64,000 bases of DNA from Malania oleifera. Lineage: Eukaryota; Streptophyta; Magnoliopsida; Santalales; Ximeniaceae. Positions 900 through 61,564 of the stretch are shown piece by piece (the stretch's first letter is position 1; every line of letters begins with the position of its first letter). Location of the stretch: the NCBI RefSeq assembly GCF_029873635.1, contig NC_080426.1:58932673-58996672 (forward strand), in the 5' to 3' direction. The position numbers and the translations under genes are program-made. The notes below the pieces were generated by a model. It had not been told where the DNA came from and made no database searches. It was given only the letters and a program-made list of their open reading frames with translations.

Positions 900-2245
900 G
901 CACTGAATATCAGAATCCAGGCTGAGGTACACAGGGATGGCTTGCTACGAATGTAAGAATCCGAGCCGTAGGGATACAATGATCTGAGCCATGAGACACA
1001 ATGATGGCTTGCTTCGAATGTAAGAATCCGAGCCGTAGGGAGATGAATGATTAGGGGGGGGCACAGCCAGGGTGAAGACAACAATTAGGTGGCTTGCTTC
1101 GAATGTAAGAATCCGAGCCGTTAGGGAATACGATGATCCTAGAGCCATGGGACACAATGATGGCTTGCTTCGATGTAAGAATCCGGCTGTAGGGATACGC
1201 TTCGAATGTGAGAATCCGAGCTGTAGGGATACGATGATCCAGCCGTGGGATACAATGATGGCTTGCTTCGAATATAAGAATTCGAGTCGCAGGGATACGA
1301 TGTTCCAGCCATGCAACACAATGATGGCTTGCTTCGAATGTAAGAATCTGAGTCGTAAGGATACGATGATCTGGCCATGGGACACAATGATGGCTTGCTT
1401 CAAATGTAAGAATCCAAGCCGTAGAGATATGATGATTCGAGCCATGGGACACAATGATGGCTTGCTTCGAATGTAAGAATCTAAACCGTAGGGATACGAT
1501 GATCCAGCCATGGGACACAATGATGGTTTGCTTCAGATGTAAGAATCTGAATCGTAGGGATATGATGATCCGAGCCATGGGATACAATGATGGCTTGCTT
1601 CGAATGTAAGAATCTGAGTCATAGGGATACGATGATCCAGCCATGGGACATAATGATGGCTTGCTTCGAATGTAAGAATCTGAGTCGTAGGGATACGATG
1701 ATCCAGCCATGGGACACAATGATGGCTTACTTCGAATTTAAGAATCCGAGTCATAGGGATATGATGATCCAGCCATGGGACACAATGATGGCTTGCTTCG
1801 AATGTAAGAATTCGAGCCGTAGGGATATGATGATCCAAGCCATGGGACACAATGATGGCTTGCTTCGAATGTAAGAATCCGAGTCGTAGGGATACGATGA
1901 TCCAGTCATGGGACACAATGATGGCTTGCTTCGAATGTAAGAATCCAAGTCGTAGGGATACCATGATCCGAGCCATAGAACACAATGATGGCTTGCTTCG
2001 AATGTAAGAATCCAATCCATAGGGATACGATGATCCGAGCCAAGGGACATAATGATGGCTTGCTTCAAATGTAAGAATCCGAGCCATAGGGACACGATGA
2101 TCCGAGCCACTGGACACAATGATTGCTTGCTTCGAATGTAAGAATCCGAACCGTAGGGATACGATAATCCATGCCATGGGACACAATGATGGCTTGCTTC
2201 GAATGTAAGAATCCGAGCCATAGCGGATACAATGATCCGAGCCAC
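900..2245. repeat. About 20-copy tandem repeat, unit about 66-67 bp
   Basis: Units contain the core ATGATGGCTTGCTTCGAATG followed by TAAGAATCCGAG and GGGATACGATGATCC. The unit length is not a steady multiple of three, so all frames shift from copy to copy. The many overlapping open frames here (up to 246 codons) are by-products of the repeat. In the element's own direction the array lies just before the purine tract, a place where Tat/Ogre elements often carry tandem repeats. Confidence 0.93.
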
Positions 2246-2652
2246 CCCAACGAGTAACAAGGTGTGAAAGCAAAGTTTAGAAAGTGGTTACTCTATTTGG
2301 AAAATGTACTTGGGGTAAGGTCTGAATGTCAATGAATGACTCCTTTATCTTTGGGATCTGTTGCCCCAGTTTCAAAATAAATCAATGTGTGTTTGGGGTC
2401 AGCTGCCCTAGTTTCCAAGTAAATCAATGTGCGCTTGGGGTCAGCTACCCCAGCTCAGATATTAGCACAATAGGAATCTCTCATTCACAGATGTCAAATG
2501 ATCATTTGAAAGTTTATTCAACAAGAGAAGTATGAAGGGTGCTCTATTACTGCTTGTGATGCTAAAATGTAATGATATGTTATTATATGTATGCGTGTTA
2601 CTAACTTATGATGCTAGAATGCAGTGATATGTTGTTATTGATATGCATGCTT
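2246..2652 (-). other. Element 3' untranslated region with GGGGTCAGC repeats
   Basis: Three imperfect units of about 45 bp (2355-2460) share GGGGTCAGCTACCC-like cores. Reverse-complemented, they match 59220-59310 of the plus-strand sister element (CAGCTGACCCC). No coding potential is seen. Confidence 0.6.
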
Positions 2653-16046: not shown

Positions 16047-17513
16047 CAATAGTCTTTTAATCCATATTGCTTCCTTGCAAGCTTGTGTAGCTGCCATATA
16101 TTCAGCTTCAGTCATAGACAATGCCACAACAGTCTGCAACTTTGATACCTAGCTTACTGCTCCTCCTGCAAGAGTAAACACATAACCTGTAGTGGATTTT
16201 CTTTTGTCAAGATCACCTGCAAAATTTGAATCAACATATCCCCTAACAATAAATTTTGATCCTTCGTAACATAATGCAGCATCTGAGGTCCCTTTGATGT
16301 ATCTTAGGACCCTCTTCACAGCATTCCAATGCCCTTTACCAAGATTCGCCATGAACTGACTGACCATACCAACTGCTTGAGCAATATCTAGTCTTGTACA
16401 AATCATAGCGTACATTAGGCTTCCCACTGATGATGCATATGACACTCGAGACAATTCCATCCTCTCTTCTTCATTGCTAGGACTCATACTTGAGGATAAT
16501 TTATAATTGACAGGAAGTGGGGTAGGAATTGGCTTACAATCTTGCATGTTGAAGTGTCGCAAGAATTTCTTCAAATAATTCTTTTGAGAGAGCCAAATCT
16601 TCTTGTCTTTTCTGTCTCAGTTAATTTGCATCCCTAAAATCTTGTTTGCTAGTCCCAAATCCTTCATATAAAACTCCCTAACCAATTGTGCCTTGAATTC
16701 TTGGATTCTTTCTTTGTTAGGGCCTACAACTAGCATACCATCCACATACAACAATAAAATAATGAAATCATTATTACCAAACCTCTTGTAGTATATACAA
16801 TGGTCTGCACTGATTCTGTTGTATCTAAGGCTAATTATGAAGGAATCAAATCTCTTGTACCAACATCTTGGTGCCTGCTTTAAGTCGTACAGAGATTTGG
16901 TTAACCTACAAACCATGTTTTCTTTTCTTTTTTCTTCAAAACATTCTTGTTGGAGCATCTAAATTTCTTCTTCAAGTTCTCCATGAAGAAAAAAAGTTTT
17001 CACATCTAACTGCTCTAGATATAAATCAAACACAGCACACATAGCCAATACAGTTCTGATAATAGTAAGTCTAACAACTAAAGAAAATATCTCATTAAAA
17101 TCAATACCTTCTTTCCGAGCATACCCTTTCACTACCAGTCTTGCACGATATCGTTCCACCTGATCGTTACCATCTCGTTTGATCTTGTAGACCCATTTAT
17201 TTCCAATGGCTTTACGTCCATGTGGTAATGGAACAAGCTCCTATGTATTATTTCTGTACAAGGCTTCAATTTCTTCCTGCATTGCTGTCGTCCACAAAGA
17301 AATATCAGTGCTACTAATAGCCTCATGAAAAGTTGATGGCTCTCCATCTTTTGTCAGAAGAAAATATGCAGTATTGCTTGCCATGACATAATATGAGTGC
17401 CATGATGGTTTCCTTGTTTCACGTACTGAACATCGAACTTTTGTATCATTGGCCTCATTTGGTTCTTGTTCCTTATGCTCTGGTGTGGCTTCAGAAGAAT
17501 CCTTATTTTCTTT
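16047..17513 (-). pseudogene. Copia reverse transcriptase and first part of RNase H
   Basis: Minus-strand pieces give the start of the RT domain (RYRARLVVKGYARKEGIDF, then LEQLDVKTFFLHGELEEEI), the middle (LTKSLYDLKQAPRCWYKRFD and LLYVDGMLVVG), and the RNase H linker (VSYASSVGSLMYAMICTR, KSTTGYVFTLAGGAVS). The catalytic YVDD box reads YVDG, so one of the two metal-binding aspartates is lost. The frame is broken between 17132 and 17159 and by in-frame stops near 16958 and 16150. Function in the ancestor was cDNA synthesis and RNA-strand removal. Confidence 0.92.
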
Positions 17514-18780
17514 TATCTAAATAGTAGTCGTTTCTGAAGTTCTGTTGTTTTCTTTATTTTGCATTTCATTTTCTGCAAATATCACATCCCTGCTGACTAC
17601 GACCTTGCGGGTAGTGGGATCCCACATGCGATATCCCTTGACTCCGTCAGCATAACCCAAGAATATGCATTTCATGGACTTTGGGTCCGGTTTAGTTCTT
17701 TCCTGGGCATTATACAATACATATGCAGGACATCCAAATATGTGAAGAGAAGAATATTGGGTTGGCTTACCAATCCACATCTCCATCAGTGTCTTCAAAC
17801 TAATTGTTGTTGACAGTGACCAATTTAACATCAGTGTCTTCAAACTAATTGCTGTTGACAGTGACCAATTTACCACATAACAAGCGGTTCTGACTGCTTC
17901 AGCCCAAAATGACTTGGCTAGATCTGCAGTCTTCAACATAACTCTGGTCCTTTCCAATATGGTTCTGTTCATCCACTCTGTTATGCCACTTTTGCTGAGG
18001 TGTATGCGAAACAGTGAACTGCCTTTGAATACCCTCTTGCTTGCAAAATGAAATAAAATTGTCGTCTTTATATTCTCCTCCATTATCTGTCCTTAATAAC
18101 TTGATTCTTTTTCCAGATTCAAGTTCCACCTATGCTTTGAATTCTTTGAACACTAGAAACACATATGACTTCCTCTTGATTGGATACACCCATATTCTCC
18201 TAGAGTAGTCATCAATAAATGATACAAAATAATGTGTTCCTCCTAGGGATGGAACTGGTGATTCCCATACATCAGAATGAATCAAGTCTAGAATGTGTTT
18301 GCTTCTGGCAGTAGATCTTTCAAATTTTAATCTATGTTGCTTACTTGTAACACAATGCTCACAAGAAGGTAGACTTACTGATTTGAGTTCAAGAAGAAGA
18401 TTACGTTGTGAAAGAATCTTCAAACCACATTCAGACATATGGCCAAGTTTACGATGCCACATTATCATTGATTCTTCCTAGGTTGATGCAACTGATGCGT
18501 CTCCCTGTTGTATAGTATTTCCCAGCACTATGTATAGATTTTCCACGATCTTTTCTGCTTTCATCAATACAAGCGTGCCTTTGACAACCTTTAAGATCCT
18601 ATTTTCAATAAGGGTTTCACAGCTAAGGTCATCTAACTGTCAAAGAGACAGTAATTTTTTCTTCAAGCCTTTCACATGTTGTACCCCTTGAATAGTGCGA
18701 ATCGTACCGTCGTACATCTTCAGTTTGATCTTACTGACACTAGGGATCTCTAAGGCATGATCATTACCCATGAATAAAGA
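17514..18780 (-). pseudogene. Copia integrase
   Basis: The GAG-pre-integrase motif is at 18130-18468 (WHRKLGHMSECGL, then C-E-H-C). The catalytic core follows (HSDVWESPVPSLGGTHYFV, FIDDYSRRIWVYPIK, LLRTDNGGEY), with a frameshift around 17980-18030 before WMNRTILERTRVMLK. An exact-looking 45-base tandem duplication (about 17783-17870) repeats NWSLSTAISLKTLM. The C-terminal part has FGCPAYVLYNAQERTKPDPK and IFLGYADGVKGYRMWDP. The Asp residues of the core are present, but the frame is broken. Confidence 0.9.
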
Positions 18781-19490
18781 TCCGCTTGAAATAGGTTCAT
18801 AAGAGTGGAACTAGTCTCGGCGAGAGGTCAAGTGCCAAGTTGCTCCAGAATCCATGATCCATACATTAGTAAGTTTCTTACCACCTTTAGAGATAGTTTC
18901 CGCTTCCTTGTATAGGATGTCACCATCACTGGAAGTACTCGCAGTGTATCCTTGAGAAGTGTTCTCTTCAAGAGCTTTCCCTGCATTCTTCTTCTTATGC
19001 CAACAATCCTTCGAAATGTGCCCCATTTTGCCACAATTATAGCATTTAAAATTATTCTTACTCCTTGACTTTGATCTACTATGACTGTGACTCCCACTAA
19101 AGCCACGTTCTGTTGATCTTCCTCTTATCATCGGTAGTGCCTCAACTTGTTAAGAACTAGACGATTTGTCTTCGTTGTTTTTGCATCCGGATTCCTGTTC
19201 CAGAACAGCCACTGCAATATCATCAAAGACCCGATTATTTGACCGAATATTATTTGTAATGTTGATGATGAGTTGATCATACGAATCTAGCAGACTTTGG
19301 AGTAGAAGCTCCGCTCATTCGGTTGGCTCAATCTTATTGCCTAACGTTGTCAGTTGGGAGAACAACGTATTAAGATTGTTGATGTGGTCCGTAACCGATG
19401 TGGACTCACTCATTCGAAGAGTGTAGATTCGCCTCTTTAAGAAGATTTTATTGTAAAGTGACTTTACCTCATAGAGCTTTGTCAGCGCAT
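18781..19490 (-). pseudogene. Copia gag C-terminal half, zinc knuckle and protease
   Basis: From 19490 the minus strand reads the gag stretch ALTKLYEVKSLYNKIFLKRR and YTLRMSES, then the zinc knuckle CYNCGKMGHISKDC (C-x2-C-x4-H-x4-C complete) and the protease motif WIMDSGATWHLTS with an intact DSG. A TAA just upstream of the RGRSTERG segment breaks the frame. Gag continues across the Athila-like insertion into 26487-26533. Confidence 0.9.
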
Positions 19491-22970: not shown

Positions 22971-24620
22971 CTAAGGAGGAATTTCGTCTGGTGGCTGCAA
23001 GTCTATAAATTGCATTGACGGGTCTCCAAATTTGAGCCACCACAGTGGATCAGTCTTCATACCTGCACGAAAATTAGCTTCAAATGAATTAATGCATGTC
23101 AAAATACCAAACAATACGTGCGCAGGTTGACCCTCGTGTGTGGACAAGAAAGGTTCTTTATTCAATATTGTGTCCAGGAAATTTGCTTCTTTATGAACTA
23201 ATATGTGATAGGAAGTTATTGGAATAATTACCTGCAGTTCTTCAGAAGCATTAACATTAAAGGTTTTACCTGGTTCTTTGAAAATTATATGCTCACCAGA
23301 CTGGTCACCCTCTTTATCGGGTGTACATATTATACCACTGCAAGAGTCTGCCTCCACATTAGGCTCCTTAACATCTAATCCAGACGGGAGTGACGATTTC
23401 ACGATTTCTGAGCTCGGAGTATGAGGTACCACAGGTTGGTACTTCGTATGAGTATCAGTCTCCTCATCAACTAACTGCTCCGCTTGTGGCCCCATTTCCT
23501 TTAATTTTTCTTTGACCTCTTCTAGTTCAACCATGACTTCTGGTGCTAGGACAACTGTTTGCCCGGCGATGAGCATCTTAGGTTGGGGAAATTCTTTCTC
23601 GCTTCTTAAAGTGATGGCAGCCTCTGCTGCCTCAAAGAGATCATCGTACATTTGTTGTTGTGGTTGCTGGTGCTCTTGAGGACTAGGCTAAGGTTCTCCG
23701 AGCAATTCTTCGTTTTCTAAAATATCAAACTGTGTGCTAATCGCATTAATGGTATCCCGCAATTCATTATTATGATCGACTTGAGTTTGCATGAACTGCT
23801 GGAGCATGTTCACCATTTGAGTTATGCTATCCTCTAGAAATTCCGATGGCGTACAGCTCTGAGGGATCTGTGGTGGCTGGTATTGAGGCGGAGGAATATC
23901 TGGGCAATTTGGTGGTTCATATGCATCACCACCACTAATTGTGCTGATAGGATGTGTAGTCATGGGTGCCTAAGTGTATTGTGTGTTGCACTGTGGGACA
24001 TTGTTAGCTAAGTAATCAAAGAATGATAATACTTGATTTGGATCCTCACTAACAGGCTCTCCATTAGACATAGTCTGGACAAAACACTTGCAATCAGGGG
24101 TAAGAGCAGTATAAAAACAATCAACTAACCTCCATGAGTCGAACCCATGATGTGGACAAGTGCTTAGTAGATCCTTGAATCGCTCCCAACAAGCCTTAAA
24201 TGTCTCGTCATCCTGCTGCACAAAATTAAGAATCTGTTCCTGCAAAAATTGAGTTTTCTGTGAGGAACAAAACGCATACAGAAATTCATGCTCCATATCA
24301 GTCCAATTAATGATAGAGTGCGGTCTTAAGGAATGAAACCAAATCAGTGCCCTATCCTGCAAAGCAGCAAGAAATAAATTCAATCTAGTAGATTCATCAG
24401 CGCTAGTATGAGAGAAAAACATGTTGCAGGTTAACTCAAACTCTGTTAGGTGCTGATAAGGGCACTCAGATTCCGTCCCGTAGAACTCGGGTAGCAACGA
24501 CGTCCTCCCGTGCTGCATCATGAAATTAAGCTCGTCATAAGGTAAAACAGTGGAAGAGGATGCAGTGGCATATTCAAGCTGCAAAAAATTCATTATCGTG
24601 CGTGGTGCAGGTGCAGCCAT
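22971..24620 (-). pseudogene. Athila-type gag with two in-frame TAG codons
   Basis: One 550-codon frame runs from an ATG at 24620. It encodes a retrotransposon capsid-type domain (residues about 40-200) with Athila features such as FYGTESECPYQHLTEFE, LWFHSLRPHS-like and FKACWERFKDLLSTCPHHGF. In-frame TAG codons interrupt it at about 23967-23969 (after QCNTQYT) and about 23685-23687 (after LLGEP). The remainder reads on in the same frame through a Gln/Pro-rich linker to an acidic C-terminal part. In both places a CAG (Gln) codon would fit the context, so the stops look like single C-to-T changes. No zinc knuckle is visible. Gag would form the virus-like particle in the cytoplasm. Confidence 0.85.
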
Positions 24621-24729
24621 GTTTCAAAACTCAAAATTTTTTTCTATTTTTGTTCTCTATTTTTTTTTATTTTTCAAAAAACTAACAAAAATGACGGGAA
24701 AAACGCAAATTTGAGACTAAGACCGACAT

Positions 24730-27900: not shown

Positions 27901-28216
27901 AGATAAAAACCTATTTTAAAAAAATCTTTTTCATTAAAAAATAATTTGCTCTCATATTCTGATTTTTCCAAAACTTGTTTCAATATTCTTAAATAGGTCT
28001 TTAGGTCCTCATAATCTCTTGGAAAAGCTTCAAAACGTATTTCAAACGATATTTAACTTTTAAAATACTTTCAATATATTTCCTAAGACTTTGTATGCCA
28101 AGCTTGACATCTTCCTCAATCTTTGCTTTTGAAGTTCTTTGCTTGAGCTGCAAATGTCTTAGTTTCTCTTTTGATCATTTGTTAAGTCTATCTTCCTTGG
28201 TGAACCACACTTGATC

Positions 28217-30557
28217 TGTGATGACCCAAAAATATATATACGATTAAAGCACAATAATAATAAAATAATAAAGATGGTCATTAAGTTAATATCAATACAA
28301 AAATATTTTTCTGTAGGATCCTTGATTCTATATTTGATGCCTAAGAAAGACCTTGTCTTAGCGAGTGCTCAGTGACCATTGCGGCTTAATCGCTCCCTGA
28401 AGGTCGGCCTGGTCAAAATGGAATTTCATAAGATAAACAGGATAGACATTATTTGTACACGTAAATAAGTATATATACATAAAATAGAATTTTGATAGAC
28501 ATAATTTGTGGAAATACATAGAAAGATAATAATAATAATATAGGTATCATATGAGGGGCCCACAAGACTATGTGGAGCCCACATGAGTCCTGAAGTCATA
28601 TGGAGGTTTACACAAGTCTCGAAACTATGTAGAACTCATAAAAATCGTATGAGGATTATTGGAGTTACGTAGGATCCATTTGGATCTCAAAGTTGTGTGG
28701 GGTCCACAAGATCATGTGGGGCCCACATGAGTTTTCAAAATTCAAAATTAATTATTTTTCAAAAATAAATAAATACTAAAAATAGTTTAAAAGTAATAAC
28801 AATGATAATAATAATGATAATAATGATTAAAAATAAAATAAAATAATAAAATAATTAATTAACTAAATAATTAATTAATTAAGTAATTAATTAAAATTTT
28901 ATTTAATGGGAATGGTGGCAAGCACTACCACATGGCCTCCATCCTCATCCTATACTCAACTCATACCTTACCCATCCCTTGCTCATTCTTTAATTTTAAA
29001 AAAATTATATTTTCACTCATCTTCCCACACTTTTATAATTTCCATTTCTTTTCCAAAATTTTCCTATAAATAGGAAGCTCTCAACCTTCATTTTTCACAA
29101 CAATTTTTCCAAGGAAAAGAAGAATTAGTGAGTGAAAGAATTTGTGGTGAAGAGAATTTTTGAGTAAGTTCTCACTCACCCACTCTTTCCGATCTCATTT
29201 CTTAGAAATAGTTATTGTGTTCATTGCACAAGGTAAAAGAAGAAGGTAAGTAAATTTTGATTATGTTAGTTTTTTTCTTAAAAATTCATACCCGAGTTTA
29301 TTTTGTAAGTAAATTTCAATTATGTTAGTTAGTTCTATAAAATTTTCATGATTTTACTTTTTCGCATATTTAATTATACGAGTTCTATTTTAACATACTT
29401 GCATTTATTTTTGGGTTAAGAAATGTTCTAATCCACTCGGGTAATTTCAGCAATTCTTCTATTCAAAAATATATATATATTTTTAACACAAAAATTGTGT
29501 GGCATGAGTTTTATTTTTATGTTACATGTTTTATGAAAATATGAGTAAAGATGAGATTTTCACGATATTATTTTAAATCGCATAAATTATAATAAGATGA
29601 TTTTAAAATCCCTTATGGCAACGAAAGTTCAAAGTTACAGATGCTCGATACCGCAGTTTAAAGTTTAAACGAATCAGAGTGCACCTACACTGTTTACATA
29701 GTAGTTATTTATGTTAGTGAATTTCTCCTGAGTGCACACCTGGTTCCGAACCAGGACTTAATAAGGAAAATCTCACTTAATGTTTACGTACGTTGATTTA
29801 GTTTGGTTGACGAACTAACTAAGTCCAATCTTCAGACCGCACAACCCAGTTATGGGGTTAAACATGACTTATGGCAAACAGACCTAAGGGTGGTTTTCAC
29901 AATTTATGTTTATAGATATTTAATTACGTATACAGAGTTATTAATGATTTGAAGGAAAAGTATAAGTTTATATGAAAAGTGTCATTCTTGTGCCTAAATG
30001 ACGATTTAAAGGAAACGTATAAGGAGAAGTATATGTATGTATATAATTAAATATTTTTATAGTTTTAAAGTTAAAAGTTTAATTTAGCGGTCACAGTATA
30101 TGGTTATTAAATTTTACTGTTATAGTTGATGGTAAAAGTTTTATGTATAAATTTTTAAATTTACATTTATTTTAGAAGCAGTGTTGAAGTTATAGTATTA
30201 AATATTGTTTTACGAAATTTTTAAAAAACTCATTTTGGCTACACACTAATAATAATCTTATTTACTTATCGAGCGTCGTCTCAATCCAATCATATTTTTA
30301 TTTCAGATAACTCTGAAGGGCATGTCGGAAATCAAGCTTAACAAGCATGCTGGTGGGGATAGAAAAATAAAGATTGATTAGAAATATTAGTATGATGCCA
30401 AATATTTATGTTTGTGTAATTTTTCTTCTTTTAAAATAAATGATTGTAATATGGATAATTAGCGTTCTGGTTTAATAATAATTGAGTTTATTTGCTTCCG
30501 TTGTAAATCAATAGTAAAAAGTAAATATCCCAAACCCTTTGGGGTTGGGGTATTACA
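28217..30557 (+). repeat. 5' LTR of the WOX-carrying element (2341 bp)
   Basis: A TATA box (CTATAAATAGG, about 29064-29074) would start transcripts near 29100 heading towards the WOX-like frame. The segment downstream (29246-30306) begins AAG|GTAAGT and ends TTTTATTTCAG|, so it resembles an intron. Near the end, the GACCGCACAACCCAG block is shared with the LTR at 62873-64000. Confidence 0.92.
29246..30306 (+). other. Possible intron inside the LTR leader
   Basis: Strong donor GTAAGT at 29246 and acceptor TATTTTTATTTCAG ending at 30306. Both sites are preserved in the 3' LTR (34482 and 35492). If used, it would be a 5' untranslated leader intron in transcripts starting at the LTR TATA box. 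Functional use is inference. Confidence 0.4.
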
Positions 30558-30572
30558 TTTGGTATCAGAGCA
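30558..30572 (+). other. Primer-binding site (initiator tRNA-Met type)
   Basis: TTTGGTATCAGAGCA directly follows the LTR end. TGGTATCAGAGC is complementary to the 3' end of plant initiator tRNA-Met. Confidence 0.88.
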
Positions 30573-30788
30573 ATAGGTTATAGGTTCTGTATACTTTAAA
30601 GAAATAATTTTACCAGAGCATAAGATATAGGTTCTACATACTCTAATATATAGGTTTTACCATAGCTTAGGCATAAAACATGATTGGGTAGGATTGGCTA
30701 ATTTAGAATATTTATTTAAGTTTGTTATATTATTATACATTAATAATAGATTTATGATTTTAAAATAACATTTGATCATTGTTTAAGA

Positions 30789-30854
30789 ATGAATCCTAAA
30801 GATAGTAGCATTGGAGGAAATGAGATTAACGTGAAAGCTTCCAAGGACAGGTAA
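30789..30854 (+). pseudogene. Short frame, possible remnant of gag start
   Basis: An ATG about 230 bases after the primer site opens a 21-codon frame (MNPKDSSIGG...) ending in TAA. Position and size fit a truncated gag N-terminus, but there is not enough sequence to identify a family. After it, about 900 bases (30855-31740) are AT-rich without any gene. Confidence 0.3.
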
Positions 30855-31674
30855 TAATCATAAATTTTCTAACAAAAATGGTAGTATTATTGAAGATATG
30901 TTAATTAATTTAAATATGTTATTTATGTTTGTAGAAATACGTACCCATGATTCAAAATTAATTGTCAGATGCATTAATAATTTAAAATTTGTATATATAT
31001 AAATATAATAATATAATAATATATGAGATTATTTATTTTCAATGTTCTTATTTTCACTAAATATATAAGAAATAACACATTAGATCCTACTGAGTTTAGA
31101 AGTGTTACACATACAAATAGATATGAATAAACGATCTATTATGAAATTTGAATTTACTCAAAATTTCTTTACATGTATAAGTTGGATATATGTTTTTTTA
31201 CATTACATATTCAGTTATCAACAAAACATTCAAGCTTAATTTAGGAATATATATTTTGACAAAATCTTTAATTTTAATTTTTTATTAGTTTATAAGGAAT
31301 TAAACATAATTTAAATATTCCTTATTATATTTAAATTCAAAAATAATAATAATAATAATAATCCCTTTGCATGTGCAAGTTTAATATGTATATCTACTTT
31401 TTTGTTTTTTTTTTTCCATTGCATATTCAATTTCCATCAAGTATCCAAGTTTGATTTAGAAGTACAAATTTTGACGGAATCTTTAATTTTATTTAAATTT
31501 ATAAAGGTTAATACAACTTAAATTTTTCTATATATATATATATATATAAACTTTATATAGTAAAAAAAAAAATTCATCAATTAAAGCAATATAAAGATTA
31601 ACTAATTTCCTTCAAATAACTAATCAATGTCAAATTATCAATCGGCCAAACATGCCCAACATATATATGATCTA

Positions 31675-31718
<44 letters not shown>

Positions 31719-31744
31719 GAATATATATATAAGGGGTACTGTTG

Positions 31745-31918
31745 CAGTTAAAAAAAGAAAAAAAAGCTTTATAGGTAGAAATCATTGGCTATAGTTCACT
31801 TACCCCCAAAGCAAGGTCAGGGCATGAGACCACTTGGGCATAGTGGGGACTCGAACCCTTAATCATATGGATGCACGGCCGGTTCCTCACCAATAGGCCA
31901 CCCACCCAAGTGGTGACC
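31745..31918 (-). mobile_element. Probable tRNA-derived SINE
   Basis: On the minus strand, TGGCCTATTGGTGAGG resembles an RNA polymerase III A box. GGGTTCGAGTCCC about 40 bases further matches the B-box consensus. The unit ends in T-runs (AAGCTTTTTTTTC on the minus strand). It lies inside the WOX-carrying retrotransposon in the opposite direction. Flanking duplications are not clear. Confidence 0.5.
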
Positions 31919-31989
31919 TAAGGATGAAATGAATTATAGTTAAAGCATTAATAAAGATGTAGAAACATAAAAAGAACCTTGAGTCTACA

Positions 31990-32275
31990 AATTTTGCAAT
32001 ACGTGTCGCTCGCTCTATTTTCGCGACACATATCGCTCTCCCTTGATTTTTGAAAAATACGTCACTCGAGGCTGCGTCGCTTTCTCTCGATTTTTGCAAC
32101 ACACATCATTCTCCCTCGATTTTTGCAAAACGCGTCGCTCTCTCTCGATTCTCATGGCACACGTCGCTCTCCCTTGATTTGTGCAAAACGTGTTGCTCGA
32201 TATCCGTGACACGCGTCGCTCTCTCTCGATTCTCGTAGCACACGTCGCTCTCTCTCGATTTCCACAACACGCAGC
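31990..32275. repeat. Minisatellite directly upstream of the WOX-like gene
   Basis: About eight to nine units of 29-33 bases with the core CGTCGCTCTCTCTCGATT followed by TTYGCAACAC. It is GC-richer than its surroundings and stops about 10 bases before the TATA box. It creates artificial Arg/Glu-rich minus-strand frames. Confidence 0.88.
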
Positions 32276-32283
32276 CATTCCTC

Positions 32284-32290
32284 TATAAAA
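32284..32290 (+). promoter_or_regulatory. TATA box of the WOX-like gene
   Basis: TATAAAA, 120 bases before the first ATG. A start site about 30 bases downstream would leave a leader of roughly 95 bases. The leader is pyrimidine-rich (CATCATAGCTTTCTATCATC). Confidence 0.5.
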
Positions 32291-32410
32291 AAGGATCTGC
32301 CCTCCTCGAACTCTAAGCATCATAGCTTTCTATCATCTTGAACAACCACATTTCGATTTGCAGAGATTAGTTCTTCCCAACTTTTCTCTTGGTTGTCTCA
32401 TTACTCGAAA

Positions 32411-33073
32411 ATGTTGCCAAATCACCCAACTCCTCAAGCTACTAAGAGCAGCACTAGATCGCCAATCCAAAGATGGAAACCTAGCAAGACACAGCTGGAT
32501 ATTTTGGAGGAGGCCTTCCGCAGCAATCAAGGGGAACTCCCTTCTATGGAGCGGACTATCTTGCTTGCAGCACAACTTCAAAGGTATGGTCTAATCGAGC
32601 CGAGGAATGTACACTTTTGGTTTGAGAACTGTAGGCATAGGCGGGAATCAGTTGGAGAAGCCACTATCTCAACTACTACTCCATCAATTCTCCATCTTAC
32701 CTCCTCCGCTACTACTGCCCCGAGCAGTGCCCTTGCCATTCTTCCAACCCTCATCCCTATCGAGAATATTCCGTCCGTGAAACTTACAACTAATATCACA
32801 CCAATGAGCCATACCCCTTACAATGGCAATATCGCAGTCACCACACTAAGGGTTTTGGATAATGCTGGCCTACTCTACCATTGCAAGGAGATCCAATGTG
32901 CGTTGAGAATCATATACGGGCCACCAATTACTCGTTATGATCATCCCCACCAAATGCCACAAAGGGAAGAGGGCAGCTCTTCCTCTCTCGCCGAACAAAC
33001 GGGCGTTCTCTCCCTTTTTTCGACCCAAGCCGGCGACATTACAAGAGGTCAATTTTGTCAAGAAAGAACCTAG
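32411..33073 (+). CDS. WOX-like homeodomain protein (220 aa) inside a retrotransposon
   Basis: The first ATG at 32411 opens an uninterrupted 220-codon frame. Residues about 16-80 form a WUSCHEL-related homeodomain with an extended loop. Helix 1 is RWKPSKTQLDILEEAF, helix 2 is the ERTILLAAQLQRYG region, and helix 3 is NVHFWFENCRHRRE. Homeodomain W48, F49, N51, R53 and R55 are kept, but residue 50 is Glu instead of the Gln usual in WOX proteins and 52 is Cys. The rest is a Ser/Thr-rich middle with no known domain. A GVLSLFS segment near residues 198-204 loosely recalls the WUS box (TL-x-LFP). WOX proteins are nuclear transcription factors of meristem and embryo patterning. There is no intron, unlike most WOX genes, so a processed copy is likely. 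It is in the element's sense direction, with its own TATA box. DNA binding and expression are unproven. Confidence 0.75.
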   Translation: MLPNHPTPQATKSSTRSPIQRWKPSKTQLDILEEAFRSNQGELPSMERTILLAAQLQRYGLIEPRNVHFWFENCRHRRESVGEATISTTTPSILHLTSSATTAPSSALAILPTLIPIENIPSVKLTTNITPMSHTPYNGNIAVTTLRVLDNAGLLYHCKEIQCALRIIYGPPITRYDHPHQMPQREEGSSSSLAEQTGVLSLFSTQAGDITRGQFCQERT

Positions 33074-33440
33074 GCGGTTAGCAGTGACATCGTTAGCATT
33101 TTAATAGATGTTGACGTTGATCTAAGGCTCTAAAGGCCAAATTTCATTCCATTTTTATACATATATTTTAATTTATAGGACATGTATAATATAAATAAAT
33201 ATATATATATATATATATATATAATTATCCTTTTCCACATCTTCTGAATTTCTTTTCCATTTCAACCTCTATTAGACCAACGATTCACACTTCAATTCCC
33301 AAAATAAAATACACCGCCAAATTGACCCTCAATCTATTCTAAGACTTAGTCAAATCGTTAATCAATTTACTCTTTCAAATAGTGCAACCAATTATACAGT
33401 ACTCATTTTAAATTTGAAAATTTCGAGGACGAAATTTTTA
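33074..33440 (+). other. Tail region between WOX-like gene and purine tract
   Basis: AT-rich, with an (AT)n run at about 33195-33222 and no further coding sequence. The last 40 bases (GAAAATTTCGAGGACGAAAT) are retrotransposon 3' sequence, so the end of the captured segment lies somewhere before about 33400. Confidence 0.55.
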
Positions 33441-33451
33441 TGAGGGGAGAA
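33441..33451 (+). other. Polypurine tract of the WOX-carrying element
   Basis: TGAGGGGAGAA directly precedes the 3' LTR start TGTGATGACCC. Confidence 0.85.
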
Positions 33452-35743
33452 TGTGATGACCCAAAAATATATATATACGATTAAAGCACAATAATAATAA
33501 AATAATAAAAATTGTCATTAAGTTAATATCAATACAGAAGTATTTTTCTGTAAGATCCTTGATTCCATTTTTGATGCCTAAGAAAGACCTTGTCTTAACG
33601 AGTGCTTAGAGACCATTACGGCTCAATCGCTCCTTAGAGGTCGACCTGGTCAAAATGGAATTTCATAGGATAAATAGGACAGATATTGTTTGTACACGTA
33701 AATAAATATATATACATAAAATAGTATTTTGACCGACATAATTTGTAGAAATACATAATAAGATAATAATAATAATATAGGTATCATATGCGAGGCCCAC
33801 AAGACTGTGGGGCCCACATGAGTCCCAAAGTCATGTGGAGGTTTACATGAGTCTCGAAACTGTGTAGGGTTCATAAAAATCGTATGAGGATTATTGGAAT
33901 TACGTAGGATCCATTTGGGTCTCGAAGTTGTGTGGGGCCCACATGAGTTTTAAAAATTCAAATTTAATTTTTTTTCAAAAATAAATAATAAAATAAATAA
34001 ATACTAAAAATAGTTTAAAAGTAATAACAATGATAATAATAATGATAATAATGGTTAAAAATAAAATAAAATAATTAAATAAATAATTAATTAATTAATT
34101 AATGAATTAAGTAAGTAAGTAATTAATTAAAAATTGATTTAATGGGAATGGTGTCAAGCACTCCCACATGGCATCCATCCCTATCCCATACTCAACCCAT
34201 ACCTTGTCCATCCCTTGCCCATTCTTTAATTTTAAAAAAATTATAATTTCATCCATCTCCCCATACTTTTATAAATTCCATTTCTTCCCCAAAATTTCCT
34301 TATAAATAGGAAGCTCTCAACCTTCATTTTTCACAACATTTTTTCCAAGGAAGAGAAGGATTAGTGAGTGAAAGAATTTGAGGTGGAGAGAATTTTTGAA
34401 TAAGTTATCACTCACTCACTCTTTCCGATCTCATTTCTTAGAGATAGTTATTGTGTTCGTAGCACAAGGTAAAAGAAGAAGGTAAGTAAATTTTGATTAT
34501 GTTAGTTTTTTTTAAAAAAATTCATACTCGAGTTTATTTTGTAAGTAAATTTCAATTATGCTAGTTAGTTCCATAAAATTTTCATGAGTTTATTTTTTCG
34601 CATATTTAATTATACCAGCTCTATTTTAACATACTTGCATTCTTCTATTCAAAAAAATATATATATTTTTAACACAAAAATTGTGTGGCATGAGTTTTAT
34701 TTTTACATTGCATGTTTTATGAAAATATGAGTAAAGATGAGATTTTCACGATATTATTTTAAATCACATAAATTATAATAAGATGATTTTAAAATCTCTT
34801 ATGGCAACGAAAGTTCAAAGTTACAGATGTTCGGTACCGCAACTTAAAGTTTAAATGGATCAGAGTGCACCCACACTGTTTATAGAGTGGTTATTTATGT
34901 TAGTGGATTTCTTTTGAGTGCACACCTCGATCCGGACCAGGACTTAATAAGGAAAATCTCACTTAATGTTTCCGTACGTTGATTTAGTTTGGTCGGCTAA
35001 CCAGTTAAGTACAGTTTTCGGACCGCACAACCCAGTCATGGGGGTAAACATGACTTACGGCAAACAGGCCTAAGGGTGGTTTTTACAATTTATGTTTATA
35101 CATATTTAATTACGTGTACAGAGTTATTAATGATTTGAAGGAAAAGTATAAGTTTATATGAAAATGGTTATTCTTGTGCCTAAATGACGATTTAAAGGAA
35201 ACATATAAGGAGAAGTATGTGTATGTATATAATTAAATATTTTTATAGTTTTAAAGTTAAAAGTTTAATTTAACAATCACAGTATATGGTTATTAAATTT
35301 TACTGTTATAGTTGATGATAAAAGTTTTATGCATAAATTTTTAAATTTACATTTATTTTAAAAGCAGTTTTGAAGTTATAGTATTAAATATTGTTTTACG
35401 AAATTTTTAAAAAACTCATTTTGGCCACACACTAATAATAATCTTATTTACTTACTGAGCGTCGTCTTACTCCAATCATATTTTTATTTCAGATAACTCT
35501 GAAGGGCATGTCGGAAATCTGGCTTAGCAAGCATGCTGGTAGGGATAGAAAAATAAAGATTGATTAGAAATATTAGTATGATGCCAGATATTTATGCTTG
35601 TGTAATTTTTCTTCTTTTAAAATAAATGATTGTAATATGGATAATTAGTGTTCTGGTTTAATAATAATTAAGTTTATTTAATTCCGCTGTAAATCAATAG
35701 TAAAAAGTAAATATCCCAGACCCTTCGGGGTTGGGGTATTACA
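33452..35743 (+). repeat. 3' LTR of the WOX-carrying element (2292 bp)
   Basis: Aligns over its full length with 28217-30557, including the TATA box (CTTATAAATAGG, about 34300) and intron-like splice sites. It lacks a segment near 34640 present in the 5' copy. Most differences seen are transitions. Confidence 0.92.
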
Positions 35744-35878
35744 TGATCCATACTTGATCTTCACTTGGTCTATACTTGATCCTTATTTCCTGAAACACAA
35801 AAACTCAACCTTTTCAAGTTAAATTGTCCTTTGTTTGTTATCACCAAAATCGATTGAAAAACCTTGTTTAGGCCAACA

Positions 35879-39061: not shown

Positions 39062-42000
39062 ATGGACACTGCTGCAGAAGCTGCTCTGCTTAGATGGAGG
39101 AAGAAGAAAGCCCTGAAGCCTATTCAGACGGCGGCCGGAGATGGGTTGAACGGGGTGGGCGCGGCGGAGTTAGAAGAGCCTCTGAGCCCGGCGGCACGGC
39201 TGTTCCATGAGCCAGACTTCAACGTGCATATCATAGCAGAAATAGGGAGCAAGATCCCGATCAACCCCCATACTGTCAAAGACAAGCTCCCCCATTCCCT
39301 TCTCAAGCAACCCCGTTTCTCCAGTTTGCAGGTATATATATTATATACGCTTGCTCACATTTAACTAGGACCATGCATCCGTTTTATTTATTTTTATATT
39401 TTATTTTTAATTTTAAGTTGAGTTTTTATTTTGCAGTGAATTTTCAGTCTTAAAATTGATTTTATTTTCCAAATTCAACCTGATGCCAGTTTTGGACAGT
39501 CTAGAGCCTTTTCAATTCCAAAAGTTAGCTCATAGGGTGACACTTTCCCTTACACTTAATATTGACCTCCAAATCCTTTTATAACCGATGTGGGATAACC
39601 TCAACATATACTTTCTATATATTGTGTTTTGTTCAATCTTATACAGAGTCAAAGCTGAATTTTAAACTTGAGCTCCCAAACACTAAACTTGTGTTATGGA
39701 GCATTAATTTCAGGTTATTTTTAGTTTGGACAAAACTGAGATTGTATTTGGCTGCATAAATTTGGAGATTTATACTTAAGTTTTTGTACAAATTTTAATT
39801 GAAGAAAATTAATATAATTTTATATTATGTACTATAAGATATAAGTAAAGTTTCAAAAAATAAGCTTGACATAAAAGCACCCAATCATAAGGTTTAAATA
39901 TATCAAATTAATTATTTGCATAAAAATTATTTTTGCCCAAAGTCAAATAGAAGAAAAAAAATGATCACATGACCCATTTTTCATTCTTTTTCGGCTTTAT
40001 ATTTGCTCATCTAAAAAATCTAATTTTAATGGTGCTTGCATACTTTTTATTTTTATTTTTTCATGAATTGAAAACCATCTGATATTTTTTTTTTGAATTA
40101 TCCAAAAATAGTATTTAACATTTCATTTTTGAAAATTTTAAATTATTTTCAAACATTACAGGCATGAAAATAATTTTAAAATTATTATTATGTTTGTTTT
40201 AAAAACTATTATTATTATTATTATTATTATTACTTGGAGAATGATAGCAATAGATTAAATTTGATTATAGTTAACAGTAATAATCTCTCTCCTCTCTTTT
40301 TTGCCACGTGGACTTGTAATGAAACGATGCTCAGCTTTTTCTTATTATAGTTATAAAGTTGTTAAAATATTTTAAATAATTAAAATTATAATTAATTTAA
40401 GAAAAACAATTATGAAATATTTATTACAAAAAGTAAGCCTTCTAAAAATCTTGAATTCCTAGCTTGTAAAATCCTTTTACTTGTGCATTTTTATTTTTAT
40501 TTTATTTTTGTTTTTCAAAAAAATTAAGAAAAGTCTTTCTTATTTTTTTTGTTAGTTCGTAACAGTTATATAAATAAATAGAAAAGAATAAAAAGTTTTG
40601 ACGTGGAAAATAATTTTATTTTTTTTATTTTAATTTTTTAAATAATTACAAATATGTTGTTTTAGTTTTAAATTTTTCAAATTTATATATGAAAGTTAGA
40701 AGATATTTTTTTAATAATTTTTTATATTTTAAATTTCTTATATAATATTTGAAAAATTAAAATACAACCAACTGTGTTTGGGAATATGAATTTTATGAGG
40801 ATTGGAAAGAAATTAATTCAATATAAATTTATATTACTATTGATGCTTAAAGAGTGTAATTTTTTAACTACTTGAAAATATTAAAAAAGAGAAATAAAAA
40901 CATGAAAATAAAATATGTTCTGCAATTAAACAAATCTTCAATTTTTTATTTTCCGAAATGAAATCTAAAAATTTTGAAAATAGAATCGTATTTTTATACT
41001 TTTTAAAAATATTTTGAAAATAAAAATTATTTTTCACACTAAAAGGCACTTAACCTAAAATACCTGGGCATCTCAAGAATTAGGGTTTCGAATTTCCATA
41101 TTTAACCTTGAATAGATGAAAGGGGAAGTACGAGAGAGAGGAGCTGCATAAAACAAGCCTCTGAAATGAAAATTTCATGGCGGCGCAGGTGAAGGATGAA
41201 AATGGGAACATGAAATGGGTGCCCACCAAGGTTGATCTGGAGAGGCACGTGATAGTCCCCGACCTGGATCCAAACATGGACTCCCCCGACAAGTTCGTGG
41301 AGGACTACATCGCCGACCTCAGCAAAGTCCCCGTCGACTTCTCCAAGCCCCTCTGGGACCTTCACCTCCTCAACGTCCGGACCTCGCAGGCGGCGGCCGT
41401 CGGCGTCTTACGGATCCACCACTCCCTCGGCGACGGCATGTCCCTAATGTCCCTCCTCCTCGCCTGCACCCGCAAGGCCTCCGACCCCGCTGCCCTCCCC
41501 ACCATCCCCGCCGCCAAGAAACCCGATTTCGCTCCCGCCGGCAAGGGCTATTGGTGGGGCCTCCGCCTGATATGGAACACTGTCGTCGATGTTTTCATGT
41601 TCTTGCTCACCACCCTGTTCTTGAAGGATACGGAGACACCTGTGAAAGGCGTGCCGACGCCTGAGTCTGTTCGTTGGCGATTCATTCACCGGACTGTCAG
41701 TTTGGATGATATTAAGTTGGTGAAGAACGCGTTGAATGCTGTTAGTTCATATCTTTTATTTAAGCATTTAACGTAATTTTTTGGGAGCACTATCAATTAC
41801 ATGTCACTCCCAACCGAAAAAATAAAAAATAAATAAAAATAAATTCAAAGCATTTACTTTTTGGGCAAAAAAGATTTTACAAAAAATTAATGACTTTCCC
41901 CATATTTTAAAATTTTCAGGTCTCTCTTGAGATTTCAAAAATTGAGAGGCCTTATCTCATGTTTAAAAAGTTTTAGGAAATTTTTTGAGATTTTAAAAAT

Positions 42001-55659: not shown

Positions 55660-57066
55660 ATGGCAGAGCAATTAGAAAGCCGCATCCTAGGCATAAAGCA
55701 AGGACAGAAGGAGTTGAGCAGTCAATTTAAAAGGATACCGGACTTGCTACTGAAAGAAGGAAAAATAGTTCAAGTGTAGGACAATGAAGTAGAAATGGAT
55801 CCCATCCATCCTCGAGGATTCACACATATTTATGGGCAATCATCTAAACCACCACAAGTTATCCTAGAGATCCCACCGCTGAGTGCAGCCACCTTTATCC
55901 CAATGGTGCCAATATCAGGAGTTGAGATGTCTCCGTTAATGACGGCAGATGTGGGTGCAGGCAAGACCGTAGCAGAATACCACAATGACGTACTCAAGGA
56001 GCAGTTAAGAGCTATAGAAGGGACCTATGTGTCCAACTATATCAACCCTGTGGATCTATGCTTGGTGCCCAAGGTGGTCCTTCCACCTAAGTTCAAGGTG
56101 CCCGAATTTGAAAAGTTGGACAGGACCCAATATCCTCAGACCCACTTGCGGCTGTACTGCCAGGCAATGGCCGCATACTTTGACAATGAAAAGTTAACGA
56201 TGCACTATTTTAGGAGCAGTTTAACTGGAACGATGGCCAAGTGGTATATCCATCAAGATAGAACACAGATCTGCACATGGGGAGATTTGGCTACTGCTTT
56301 TGTAGTTCAGTACCGACACATCATGGACATGGCGTCAAATCAGATGGCCCTATTGGAAATGAGGAAGAAGTCTACTGAGACCTTTAAAGAATATGCCTAC
56401 AGATGGCAAGACTTGGCAGTCCAAGTTGACCCCTCGGTAGGTGACCAAGAAGTTATTTCCCTGTTTGTTAGTACACTGAAAGACCCCTACTGAGGACATC
56501 TTCAGGGAGCAACTCCCTATGACTTCATGGACACCGTGGCCATATGAGTTAGGATTGAGGCCAGCATCAAGGTGGGCCTAGTCAAGGATAGTGGAAATGA
56601 GACTGGTCCGGGCAAAAAGTGGATAGGTAGGAAGAAGGATGAGGAAGCTCAAATGGTTCAGGAGTGTTATCATTAGGGAGGTAGAAATCAGTGACCTAAG
56701 AAAAATTTTGTTGTCAAACCCACCATTAATTAGATTGCACATACAGGTGTGAGGCCTCAAATGGTTCCTCCCGAGCCTATCCCCACCCATCCAATTAACC
56801 AAGCACAAGAAAAGGGTATCCAAAGGAACGTCAGGAAGATAGACCCCATTCCAATGACATATTCGAACTTATTCTCTCAATTGAAAGAGTATAACATGGT
56901 GTCAACCATTTTGGGGACTCCGATTTTACCCCCTTTCCCGCATTGGTACGACCTAGAAGCCCAATGCACATATCATGCCAACGCTATTGGGCTCACCATC
57001 GAGCGCTGGTTGGGCTTTCAAACACAAGGTACAAACGCTGAGGGATGTGGGGTCGTTGCATTTTGA
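55660..57066 (+). pseudogene. Tat/Ogre-type gag pseudogene
   Basis: A single frame from the ATG at 55660 (MAEQLESRILGIKQG) can be followed for 469 codons with about six in-frame stops. They include TAG near 55777, TGA at 56491, and TAG/TGA codons at 56540-56735. The capsid-like core is clear: PPKFKVPEFEKLDRTQYPQT, then CQAMAAYFDNEKLTMHYFRS, SLTGTMAKWY and FKEYAYRWQDLA. The C-terminal part PIPMTYSNLFSQLKEY and WYDLEAQCTYHANAIG corresponds to the family's metal-binding motif, but its distal His and Cys are Leu and Trp. Gag would package the element RNA. This copy cannot make it. Confidence 0.88.
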
Positions 57067-59459: not shown

Positions 59460-61564
59460 CTGTCCTTTACCTTCTCTATCAACTTCATCAATTCTATGTC
59501 ATTTTTTTGGGCTGCTTTAATCCTTTCGTGTAGGATAAGCTATACCACCAGGTTGGTAATAAATGCATTGTGATCACTCTCTACTAACTCTACACTTAGC
59601 CTCCCCAAGTCTATCTAGATCGGGCGCTGAATTTCTGCTGCTAACAATGTCGCTATCATGGATTTTCAGTTCAGCGCATCAGCCACCACATTTTCTTTAC
59701 CTGAATCATAGCTGATAGTACAATCATAATCCTTGATGAGCTCTAACCATTTTATTTGCCACATTTTCAACTCCTTATGCATGAAGAAGTACTTTAAACT
59801 TTTATGGTCTGAAAATATTTCACATCTCTCTTCGTATAGATAATGCCTCCAAATTTTTAATGCATGTACCACTGCAACCAATTCTAGGTCATGGGTGGGA
59901 TAATTTTCAATTGTCTAGAGGCATAAGCTAATACTTGGCCCTGCTGCATTAATATACATCTGAGGCCCCTCAAAGATGTGTCACAGTAGATCACGTAACC
60001 ATCACCTCCCAATGGAATAGTCAATACTAGTGTAGTGATGAACCTCTGTTTCAATTCCTTGAAACTCTACTCACAACTATCATCTTATTCAAATCTGACA
60101 TTCTTTTTGGTTAGTCATGTCAGAGGCCCTGATAATATTGAGAATTCTTTTACAAACTGACGGTAATATCCCGCCAGTCCCAAGAAACTCCTAATTTCCT
60201 GAACGTTCCTCGGCCTGGCCCAATTCACTACTGCCTTTATCTGGCTGGGATCTACTGAAATTTCATCCCCTGATATAATATGCCCATAAACATAGCTTTC
60301 TCTAACCATAATTCACATTTGCTAAACTTGACATACAATTTTTTTCCGTGATCATTTGAAGTACTAGCCTTAGATGTGTCTCATGCTCCTCAAAACTCCT
60401 TGAGTAGACCAGTATGTCATCAATGAAAATCACAATGAACTGGTCAAAATATTGGTGAAAGATTCTATTCGTCAAATTCATGAATAAAATAGGAGCATTC
60501 GTCGGACCAAATGGCATAACTAGAAATTCATAATGCCCATACCTGGTCTTGAAAGCTTTCTTCGAAACATCTTCTGATTTAACTTTCACCTGATGATAAC
60601 CTGACCGGAGGTCGATCTTGGAATAGACCCGTGTACCCTGAAGCTGATCAAATAAGTCATCTATATGGGGTAAAGGATACATGTTCTTAATTGTTACTTT
60701 GTTTATTTCTATATAATCTATGCACATCCTCATAGTCTCGTCTTTCTTTTTTACAAATAAAAATGGAGCTCCCTAGAGCGATACACTAGATCTAATAAAC
60801 CTTTTATTTAATAAACCCTATGACTGATCCTTTAATTCTCCCAATTATATTGGAGCCATTCAGTAAGGAGCTTTAGAAGCTAGTGCTGTCCCTAGAAGTA
60901 CGTCGATAGCAAAGTCTACCTCGCAATTGGGAGGTAACCTAAGTAGTTCCTTTAGAAAAACATCTGAAAACTCTTTTACTACTAGTGTAATGATAAGCTT
61001 CAATTCATTTTCTATCACCTCCTTTACATAGGTTATAAACCCCTGACATCCATCCAGGAGTAGTCTTCTCGGCTGTATGGCTGAATTTAACTGAAGTGGG
61101 GAATGAACCTGTGACCCCACAAATCTGAATTCTTGCTTTCTCAGTGGTATAAATATCACCTCTTTCAGATGACAGTCAATATTAGCATAGCTAGCTGCGA
61201 ACCAGTCCATACCCAGTATCACATAAAATCCATGCATATCTAGCACAATTAGGTCAGCTGGTAATACTCTCCCCTAAATATCTATTGGATATCCCTTAAG
61301 CACCCTATGACACCTCACCACTGACCCTGTCAGTGTTGTTATTGACAATTCAACATCTAATAACTGTGTCTCAACACCAGACAATTTAACGTATCCCGCA
61401 GACACAAAAAAATGGGTGGCACCTAAATCAAATAAAATAATAGTTTGATATGATAAAGCAGTAAGGGTACCTGTTATGACGTTGCCTACGACCTCTGCAT
61501 CTCCCAGCGTCAAAGCATATACCCTCGCCGGAGCTACATTCCTCTGCTGGCCTCCACTGGGCAC
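59460..61564 (-). pseudogene. Gypsy protease, reverse transcriptase and RNase H
   Basis: Minus-strand pieces appear in pol order. Protease (61274-61564) carries LFDLGATHFF, where the catalytic D-S/T-G has become D-L-G. A linker (60860-61246) has VILGMDWFAASYA. RT (60302-60733) has [40 protein letters not shown] and an intact FIDDILVYS catalytic motif. RNase H (59666-59881) has [14 protein letters not shown] and ENVVADAL. The integrase is missing: similarity fades near KLIEKVKDRH at about 59465. Stops and frame breaks separate all pieces. The style fits the Del/Tekay group, but without the integrase and chromodomain that is tentative. Confidence 0.9.

Follow-up and report, generated by a model that had tools for sequence, protein, structure and literature searches.

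The window analysed here is a 64,000-nucleotide stretch of the Malania oleifera genome (RefSeq assembly GCF_029873635.1, contig NC_080426.1, positions 58,932,673 to 58,996,672 of the forward strand), which carries at 28217-35743 a long terminal repeat (LTR) retrotransposon with a WOX gene in place of gag-pol. The 5' LTR (28217-30557, plus strand, 2341 bp) reads TGTGATGACC...GGGTATTACA, i.e., has TG...CA ends, and LTR alignment places the 3' LTR (33452-35743, plus strand, 2292 bp) in direct orientation to it. Adjoining the 5' LTR is a primer binding site, TTTGGTATCAGAGC, at 30558-30571 (plus strand), which we take to be of the initiator-methionine tRNA type, and adjoining the 3' LTR is a polypurine tract (PPT), GAGGGGAGAA, at 33442-33451 (plus strand). 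Comparison of the flanks showed a target site duplication (TSD), TGATC, flush at both outer edges of the element (28212-28216 and 35744-35748). These features, all found where the original prediction had placed them, together span 28212-35748 and mark out a single insertion. Aligned over 2270 bases, the two LTRs show 165 differences, i.e., 7.3% where roughly 7% had been claimed (Kimura two-parameter (K2P) distance 0.077). A substitution rate of 1.3e-8 per site per year, as used for rice and not calibrated for Malania oleifera, would put the age of this insertion at about 3 million years.

The interior of the element is 2894 bp long and contains no gag-pol of its own among the stop-to-stop frames of at least 110 aa that were inspected; the WOX frame is the sole frame of that size, in agreement with the predicted lack of pol. 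Neither Rfam nor a tRNA scan gave any match in the window. The WOX frame runs in the sense direction from the ATG at 32411 to the stop at 33073 (plus strand), comprises 220 codons and is uninterrupted by introns. Upstream of it, on the same strand, lie an array of 29-bp tandem repeats (32074-32260) and, 3' of this array, an internal TATA box (32284-32292) which is a candidate promoter for the WOX frame, separate from that of the LTR. Of the 40 window-like copies that were aligned, described below, 36 have this TATAAAA approximately 120 bp ahead of the start codon, and a further copy, L048, has it too; L024, L044, L046 and L047 do not.

The frame encodes a predicted WOX-type homeodomain protein with putative DNA-binding activity. 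Its homeodomain (32468-32647, plus strand) passes the family cut-off of Pfam PF00046 (E=5.1e-8), and a phmmer comparison with the PDB at E<=1 returned STENOFOLIA (8.7e-9), WUSCHEL (5.1e-8) and nothing else, which bears out the WUSCHEL-family assignment made at the outset. AlphaFold2, given the window's protein as a single sequence, produced a model with a mean predicted local distance difference test score (pLDDT) of 32, which was not used for a fold search. The window copy is shortened, with a stop about 20 residues ahead of the common C-terminal end, and it has lost the C-terminal motif [VI][DE]LRL, while its WUS-box-like motif (33005-33028, plus strand) reads VLSLFSTQ. In the 17 full-length copies that were read (229-243 aa), WFEN of homeodomain helix 3, LSLF and the C-terminal [VI][DE]LRL are each kept in 17/17; VDLRL is found in 14, LSLFP in 12 and VLSLFPTQ in 9, and the C-terminal motif is one residue off a strict EAR motif. 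The order of these motifs, with the homeodomain first, then the WUS-box-like motif and then the EAR-like end, is as in WUS.

The genome searched amounts to 1.49 Gb in 510 contigs, among them C1-C13 of 86-157 Mb each, with the window on C10. When the WOX frame was used as a DNA query, the best 40 of 691 candidates all spanned nearly the whole segment at 88-100% identity and were spread over all of C1-C13, the window being one of the 40. Twenty of these window-like copies were fetched with flanks and 19 as short pieces, with the window as the 40th. Family LTR sequence (matches >150 bases) lies on both sides of the WOX segment in 17 of the 20 copies with flanks, and on the 3' side only, within the fetched stretch, in L012, L017 and L028. 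Eleven elements were delimited by script, five of which (the window element, L010, L020, L023 and L025) have flush 5-bp TSDs that are all different; L026 matches at four of five bases, the TSD of L018 is not flush, L024 lies within a tandem array, and for L013, L016 and L027 the script had set the boundaries wrongly, so that their TSDs and divergences were not used. The remaining eight LTR pairs have K2P divergences of 0.068-0.094. One alternative is that solo LTRs, or an assembly artefact, merely surround an ordinary WOX gene. We found nothing in its support, and the recurrence of LTR-WOX-LTR copies in those 17 of 20 cases, with distinct TSDs in five of 11 delimited elements and in L048, refutes it; we give it practically no credence, and chance solo LTRs around a host gene had already been thought unlikely from the window alone.

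Two short probes were used for counting. The 41-mer of the PPT-LTR junction (tract plus LTR tip) has 1144 genome sites at <=3 mismatches, and a WOX 36-mer, which is present in 49 of the 52 copies in hand and may thus miss more distant ones, has 445 matches; the backwards control of each gave 0. Twenty junction sites were sampled from those which had no known nearby WOX match and were not of L048 type, a sample biased against WOX. Here, blastn found WOX in 15 and a WOX tail in L092; L090 and L096 have integrase-type coding, L094 has a remnant seen by eye, and nothing was recognised in L095. The original prediction had suggested looking for more elements that share these LTRs and the WOX segment, and they were found in number, as 40 scored copies (the window included), 445 WOX matches and 1144 junctions. 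The window element is a member of a non-autonomous LTR retrotransposon family with hundreds of copies.

A genome search with the STENOFOLIA homeodomain gave access to intact copies. The best 150 of 650 candidates were scored, of which 19 were host-like and 131 element-type; 16 of the former (L060-L075) and 13 of the latter (L048-L059 and L076) were read, the others being classed by score and list position. On reading, the 16 all proved host-like, and all 13 element-type matches show the element protein, L054 in part only. In 93 of the 131 element-type matches the open frame extends to 235 codons or more (exactly 236 codons in 68), and one of these has an internal stop, leaving 92 stop-free; among the 40 window-like copies, the window included, the same frame is full length in six. 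The earlier reservation that 220 codons could stay open by chance does not hold up against these counts. The fetch yielded 11 usable intact frames, all full length at 229-240 aa, with L054 left out. In L048 the LTRs differ at 11 of 2490 bases (0.44%), the TSD is GTACC and the frame is 230 aa long, the next longest forward frame being 90 aa; given this LTR pair and TSD, the family has therefore moved recently.

Two side observations concern the arrangement of copies. Element-type homeodomains lie 5.3-5.8 kb apart, like LTR-internal-LTR-internal tandem arrays, at C6:84.61, C1:68.24, C7:96.28 and C4:124.24 Mb and at other sites, and also at L024. The frames of L057 and L058 appear mosaic by eye, with an N-terminal half and homeodomain like those of the window subfamily and a C-terminal half of L048 type, as from template switching.

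If the WOX gene were a passive passenger, captured once and copied along, its frames would be intact merely through youth and its protein would be inert. The older copies are consistent with this: only six of the 40 window-like copies are full length, singleton variants in these 40 fall evenly on the three codon positions (89/90/90), old singletons have an omega-like ratio of 0.90 (p 0.46, stop changes left out), and in a codon model (IQ-TREE) omega=1 was not rejected for six old intact copies (2dlnL, i.e., twice the log-likelihood difference, 1.2, p 0.28). Private changes in single old copies thus look neutral. Between the intact lineages, on the other hand, there is purifying selection on the element protein. 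The ratio of nonsynonymous to synonymous rates (dN/dS), a comparison proposed together with the original prediction, is 0.24-0.79 and below 1 in every one of the 36 pairs listed of 136 possible, at dS of up to 0.36 between lineages. L048 and L058 are separated by 29 nonsynonymous and 33 synonymous changes (dN/dS 0.25; L048 vs L057, 0.24), and L049 and L051 by 50 and 40 (dN/dS 0.35); branch lengths place most of the L048-L058 divergence before the L057/L058 split.

The depletion of nonsynonymous changes was further assessed with omega-like ratios, which use the mutation spectrum of the old singletons and an expected nonsynonymous fraction of 0.744. These were 0.30 for L048-L058 (p 3e-6), 0.43 for L049-L051 (p 1e-4) and 0.50 for L048-L051 (p 0.0016), and the first two stay significant even under an extreme C>T bias, at 0.42 (p 0.0009) and 0.58 (p 0.012). 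Fisher tests against the old singletons (192:68, with 14 stop changes counted as nonsynonymous) gave 7e-5 and 0.0015, while variants common to at least three old copies were intermediate (0.66, p 0.014). When seven pairs were split, the N-terminal half had values of 0.36-0.69 and the C-terminal half 0.15-0.47, such that both halves of the protein are constrained. In the codon model, omega=1 was rejected for the 11 intact copies (2dlnL 16.1, p 6e-5), for five lineage representatives (2dlnL 15.2, p 1e-4) and for all 17 frames (2dlnL 13.9). Neutral private changes in the undated L049 and L051 would raise the ratio, not lower it, and could therefore only mask a signal of constraint. We consequently regard an inert passenger as unlikely.

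Selection might alternatively have acted on the open frame as such, if translation of the RNA aided the stability, packaging or export of the message and the frame did not serve as a regulator protein. According to PMC7264820, there are LTR elements in plants with additional frames that are conserved but whose function is not known. Selection for openness alone, however, would not deplete amino-acid changes, and WFEN, LSLF and [VI][DE]LRL are kept throughout the full-length proteins, with LSLFP as the less regular exception, so that we consider this explanation decidedly improbable.

A third alternative places selection at the level of the host, with some copies having been domesticated as extra plant WOX genes. 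The raw material is there, in hundreds of copies many of which have the internal TATA box (36 of the 40 aligned), and captured genes under purifying selection are reported from sorghum (PMC3726574). The constraint seen here, though, lies between lineages of dispersed copies, and the private changes of old insertions look neutral; we hold domestication to be very improbable.

No recent donor of the WOX gene was found among the host loci. Sixteen of the 19 host-like matches were compared (three of the C1 cluster were left out, and the stop in L068 was masked as X), and their homeodomains are 28-41% identical to those of five element copies, while the solved STENOFOLIA chain reaches 43%. In the tree, the element homeodomains form one group on a long branch with support 100, which stands beside host L064 with a support of only 14. 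The donor gene that the original prediction had proposed to find thus has no near relative among the 16 host loci. Since there is no close host relative, the element's gene probably goes back to an old capture of a WOX gene from a plant. The element frame is intronless, and the frames of host L060-L064, which are WUS-clade-like, end 38-92 codons past the WFxN motif, as might be expected, if weakly, were introns to follow; some other host matches, unlike L060-L064, run for >155 codons. Separately, a group of WUS-like homeoboxes at C1:44.65-44.69 Mb (L065, L066), on C435 (L067) and at C13:48.3 Mb (L068) is 56-64% identical to the STENOFOLIA homeodomain; these group with the host WUS-like L063, some have in-frame stops, and they look like a local WUS duplication with relics.

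As regards the enzymes for movement, integrase-type coding upstream of the junction matches Pfam SH3_Tf2-1 in L090 (1.2e-24) and L096 (2.4e-14). These PPT-sharing relatives may be Tekay/Del-type chromoviruses; Pfam gave no chromodomain match. The integrase-type peptide of L090 had 34322 first-look candidates in the genome, and five of the best 150, which were scored, lie in open frames of 1496-1504 aa. The LTR of one integrase-bearing element (L090) was compared, and no helper whose LTRs match those of the family was found.

Taken together, we consider it probable that the window belongs to a high-copy, helper-dependent element of Ty3/gypsy type, which has a captured WOX regulator as its one gene and keeps it working because it promotes the element's spread. 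A plant WOX gene would have been taken up long ago, such that the gag-pol region was replaced by a single sense, intronless gene with its own TATA box, and Gag, reverse transcriptase and integrase would come in trans from related autonomous elements. Working versions of the protein would be favoured as the element multiplies; it is the depletion of amino-acid changes between intact lineages that suggests a benefit of the protein to the element. Most likely, the protein would act as a nuclear regulator in the cells in which heritable jumps must occur. It could activate transcription of the element itself, or it could hold the carrier cell in the state of a meristem stem cell, or bring it into that state, so that new insertions enter the germ line. 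In a non-autonomous element, a protein that acts in trans would hardly be maintained unless its benefit were tied to the carrier cell, and making that cell a stem cell, or activating the element in such cells, would provide the tie. Carried one step further, this leads to a selfish meristem driver, in which a working WUSCHEL-like regulator is retained since its expression makes cells into stem cells or keeps them so, and their new insertions are over-represented in the germ line; we put this forward tentatively, as a possibility that is more doubtful than the general case of a regulator promoting spread.

Several observations weigh against the reading of a WOX regulator kept for the element's own benefit. 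The strict definitions given in PMC8431079 are T-L-[DEQP]-L-F-P-[GITVL]-[GSKNTCV] for the WUS-box and L-[ED]-L-[RST]-L for the EAR motif, and neither occurs in any of the 17 full-length copies (0/17 each); the lineages of L049 and L051 moreover have no P of LSLFP. The weakest pair, L048-L051, loses significance under a strong C>T bias (p 0.054-0.094; ratio 0.70 at p 0.094 under the extreme bias), and the apparent mosaicism of L057 and L058 conflicts with the single tree that the codon model assumes, so that the model is approximate. The 11 intact copies were picked among matches with long frames, and L048 is the only one dated by its LTRs, the others having been called young from their frames. 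L090 has the PPT and LTR tip in common with the family, and the body of its LTR is different.

Activation of the element by its own protein through LTR binding sites likewise found little support. The LTR TATA box, TATAAATA (29065-29072, plus strand), occurs also once in each L048 LTR, and upstream of it lies a (TAAT)n stretch (28844-28894, plus strand) which could, at a stretch of inference, offer possible homeodomain sites. TTAATGG, present once per window LTR at 162 bases upstream of this TATA box, was considered as a WUS site and dropped, as neither LTR of L048 contains it. TAATTA occurs eight times within the LTR's first 860 bases, where 1.8 are expected, a number that none of 500 shuffles reached; with (TAAT)n removed there is one against 1.2 expected, and the excess was rejected as a regulatory signal. 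Both outcomes belong with the points that tell against the favoured reading.

Other features of the window are as follows. A WS_DGAT_cat frame (Pfam 2e-10) at 41165-41776 (plus strand), approximately 5 kb from the element, is likely part of a host wax-ester synthase gene. Retrotrans_gag domains were found by Pfam at 23970-24623 (minus strand) and 55780-56493 (plus strand), and a reverse transcriptase, RVT_1 (Pfam 3e-28), at 60302-60772 (minus strand). A copia-like pol was recognised by eye at 16149-19149 (minus strand), one tested piece of which had no Pfam match, and long frames of a repeated unit (ASHHCVPWLGSSYPYDSDSYIR-like) lie at 945-2276 (minus strand); a single one of these frames was compared with Pfam and gave no match.

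The capture of host genes by plant LTR elements, e.g., maize Bs1, is already known (PMC7264820, PMC13317346 and PMC3726574), and transduced genes are said in a review of additional open reading frames (aORFs) to occur in one or few copies. Maize Bs1 and other transducing LTR elements resemble the present family in having host-derived coding sequence in sense, whereas here, as compared with those accounts, a captured developmental homeobox gene is the sole gene, is present in hundreds of copies and is constrained. Genes captured within LTR elements of rice and sorghum, some of them under purifying selection, are likewise similar, but PMC3726574 appears to survey individual captured genes, while here an element family is defined by its cargo. 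The main text of that survey uses none of the words "homeobox", "homeodomain" and "transcription factor", and that of a 2026 gene-capture review uses neither "homeobox" nor "WUSCHEL". Judged by titles and abstract openings, searches of the open-access literature turned up no case in which an LTR element had captured a WOX or other homeobox gene. That such elements capture genes is thus familiar, and selection at the level of the element for a captured fate regulator would, if confirmed, be unusual.

The family is of interest because a gene of developmental-regulator type is the sole gene of an element that has been successful and active until recently, numbers hundreds of copies and encodes a constrained protein, and it raises a testable question, namely whether transposons gain access to the germ line by manipulating the fate of plant stem cells. 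On a practical level, many of the "WOX" genes in annotations of the Malania oleifera genome may belong to this element, alongside those of the host. Among other known systems, non-autonomous LTR elements of the LARD (large retrotransposon derivative) and TRIM (terminal-repeat retrotransposon in miniature) kinds also keep LTRs, primer binding site and PPT without gag-pol; they typically carry no conserved host gene, and in this they differ from the present family with its conserved WOX gene. Hoen 2006 reportedly described ULP-like genes multiplied by Arabidopsis transposons, which is similarly a captured host gene family multiplied by transposons; those are DNA transposons with a protease-type gene, and here it is a retrotransposon with a transcription factor. 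A parallel in organisation is found in animals. In acutely transforming retroviruses the replication genes are replaced by a captured regulator of growth or fate, and these viruses are helper-dependent. The WOX element, too, has a regulator in place of replication genes and would depend on helpers, but it is a plant retrotransposon within a genome, with a putative helper and a putative effect on cell fate. If the meristem driver were real, it would be a plant analogue of the oncogene-carrying retroviruses, with selection acting at the level of the element over long times.

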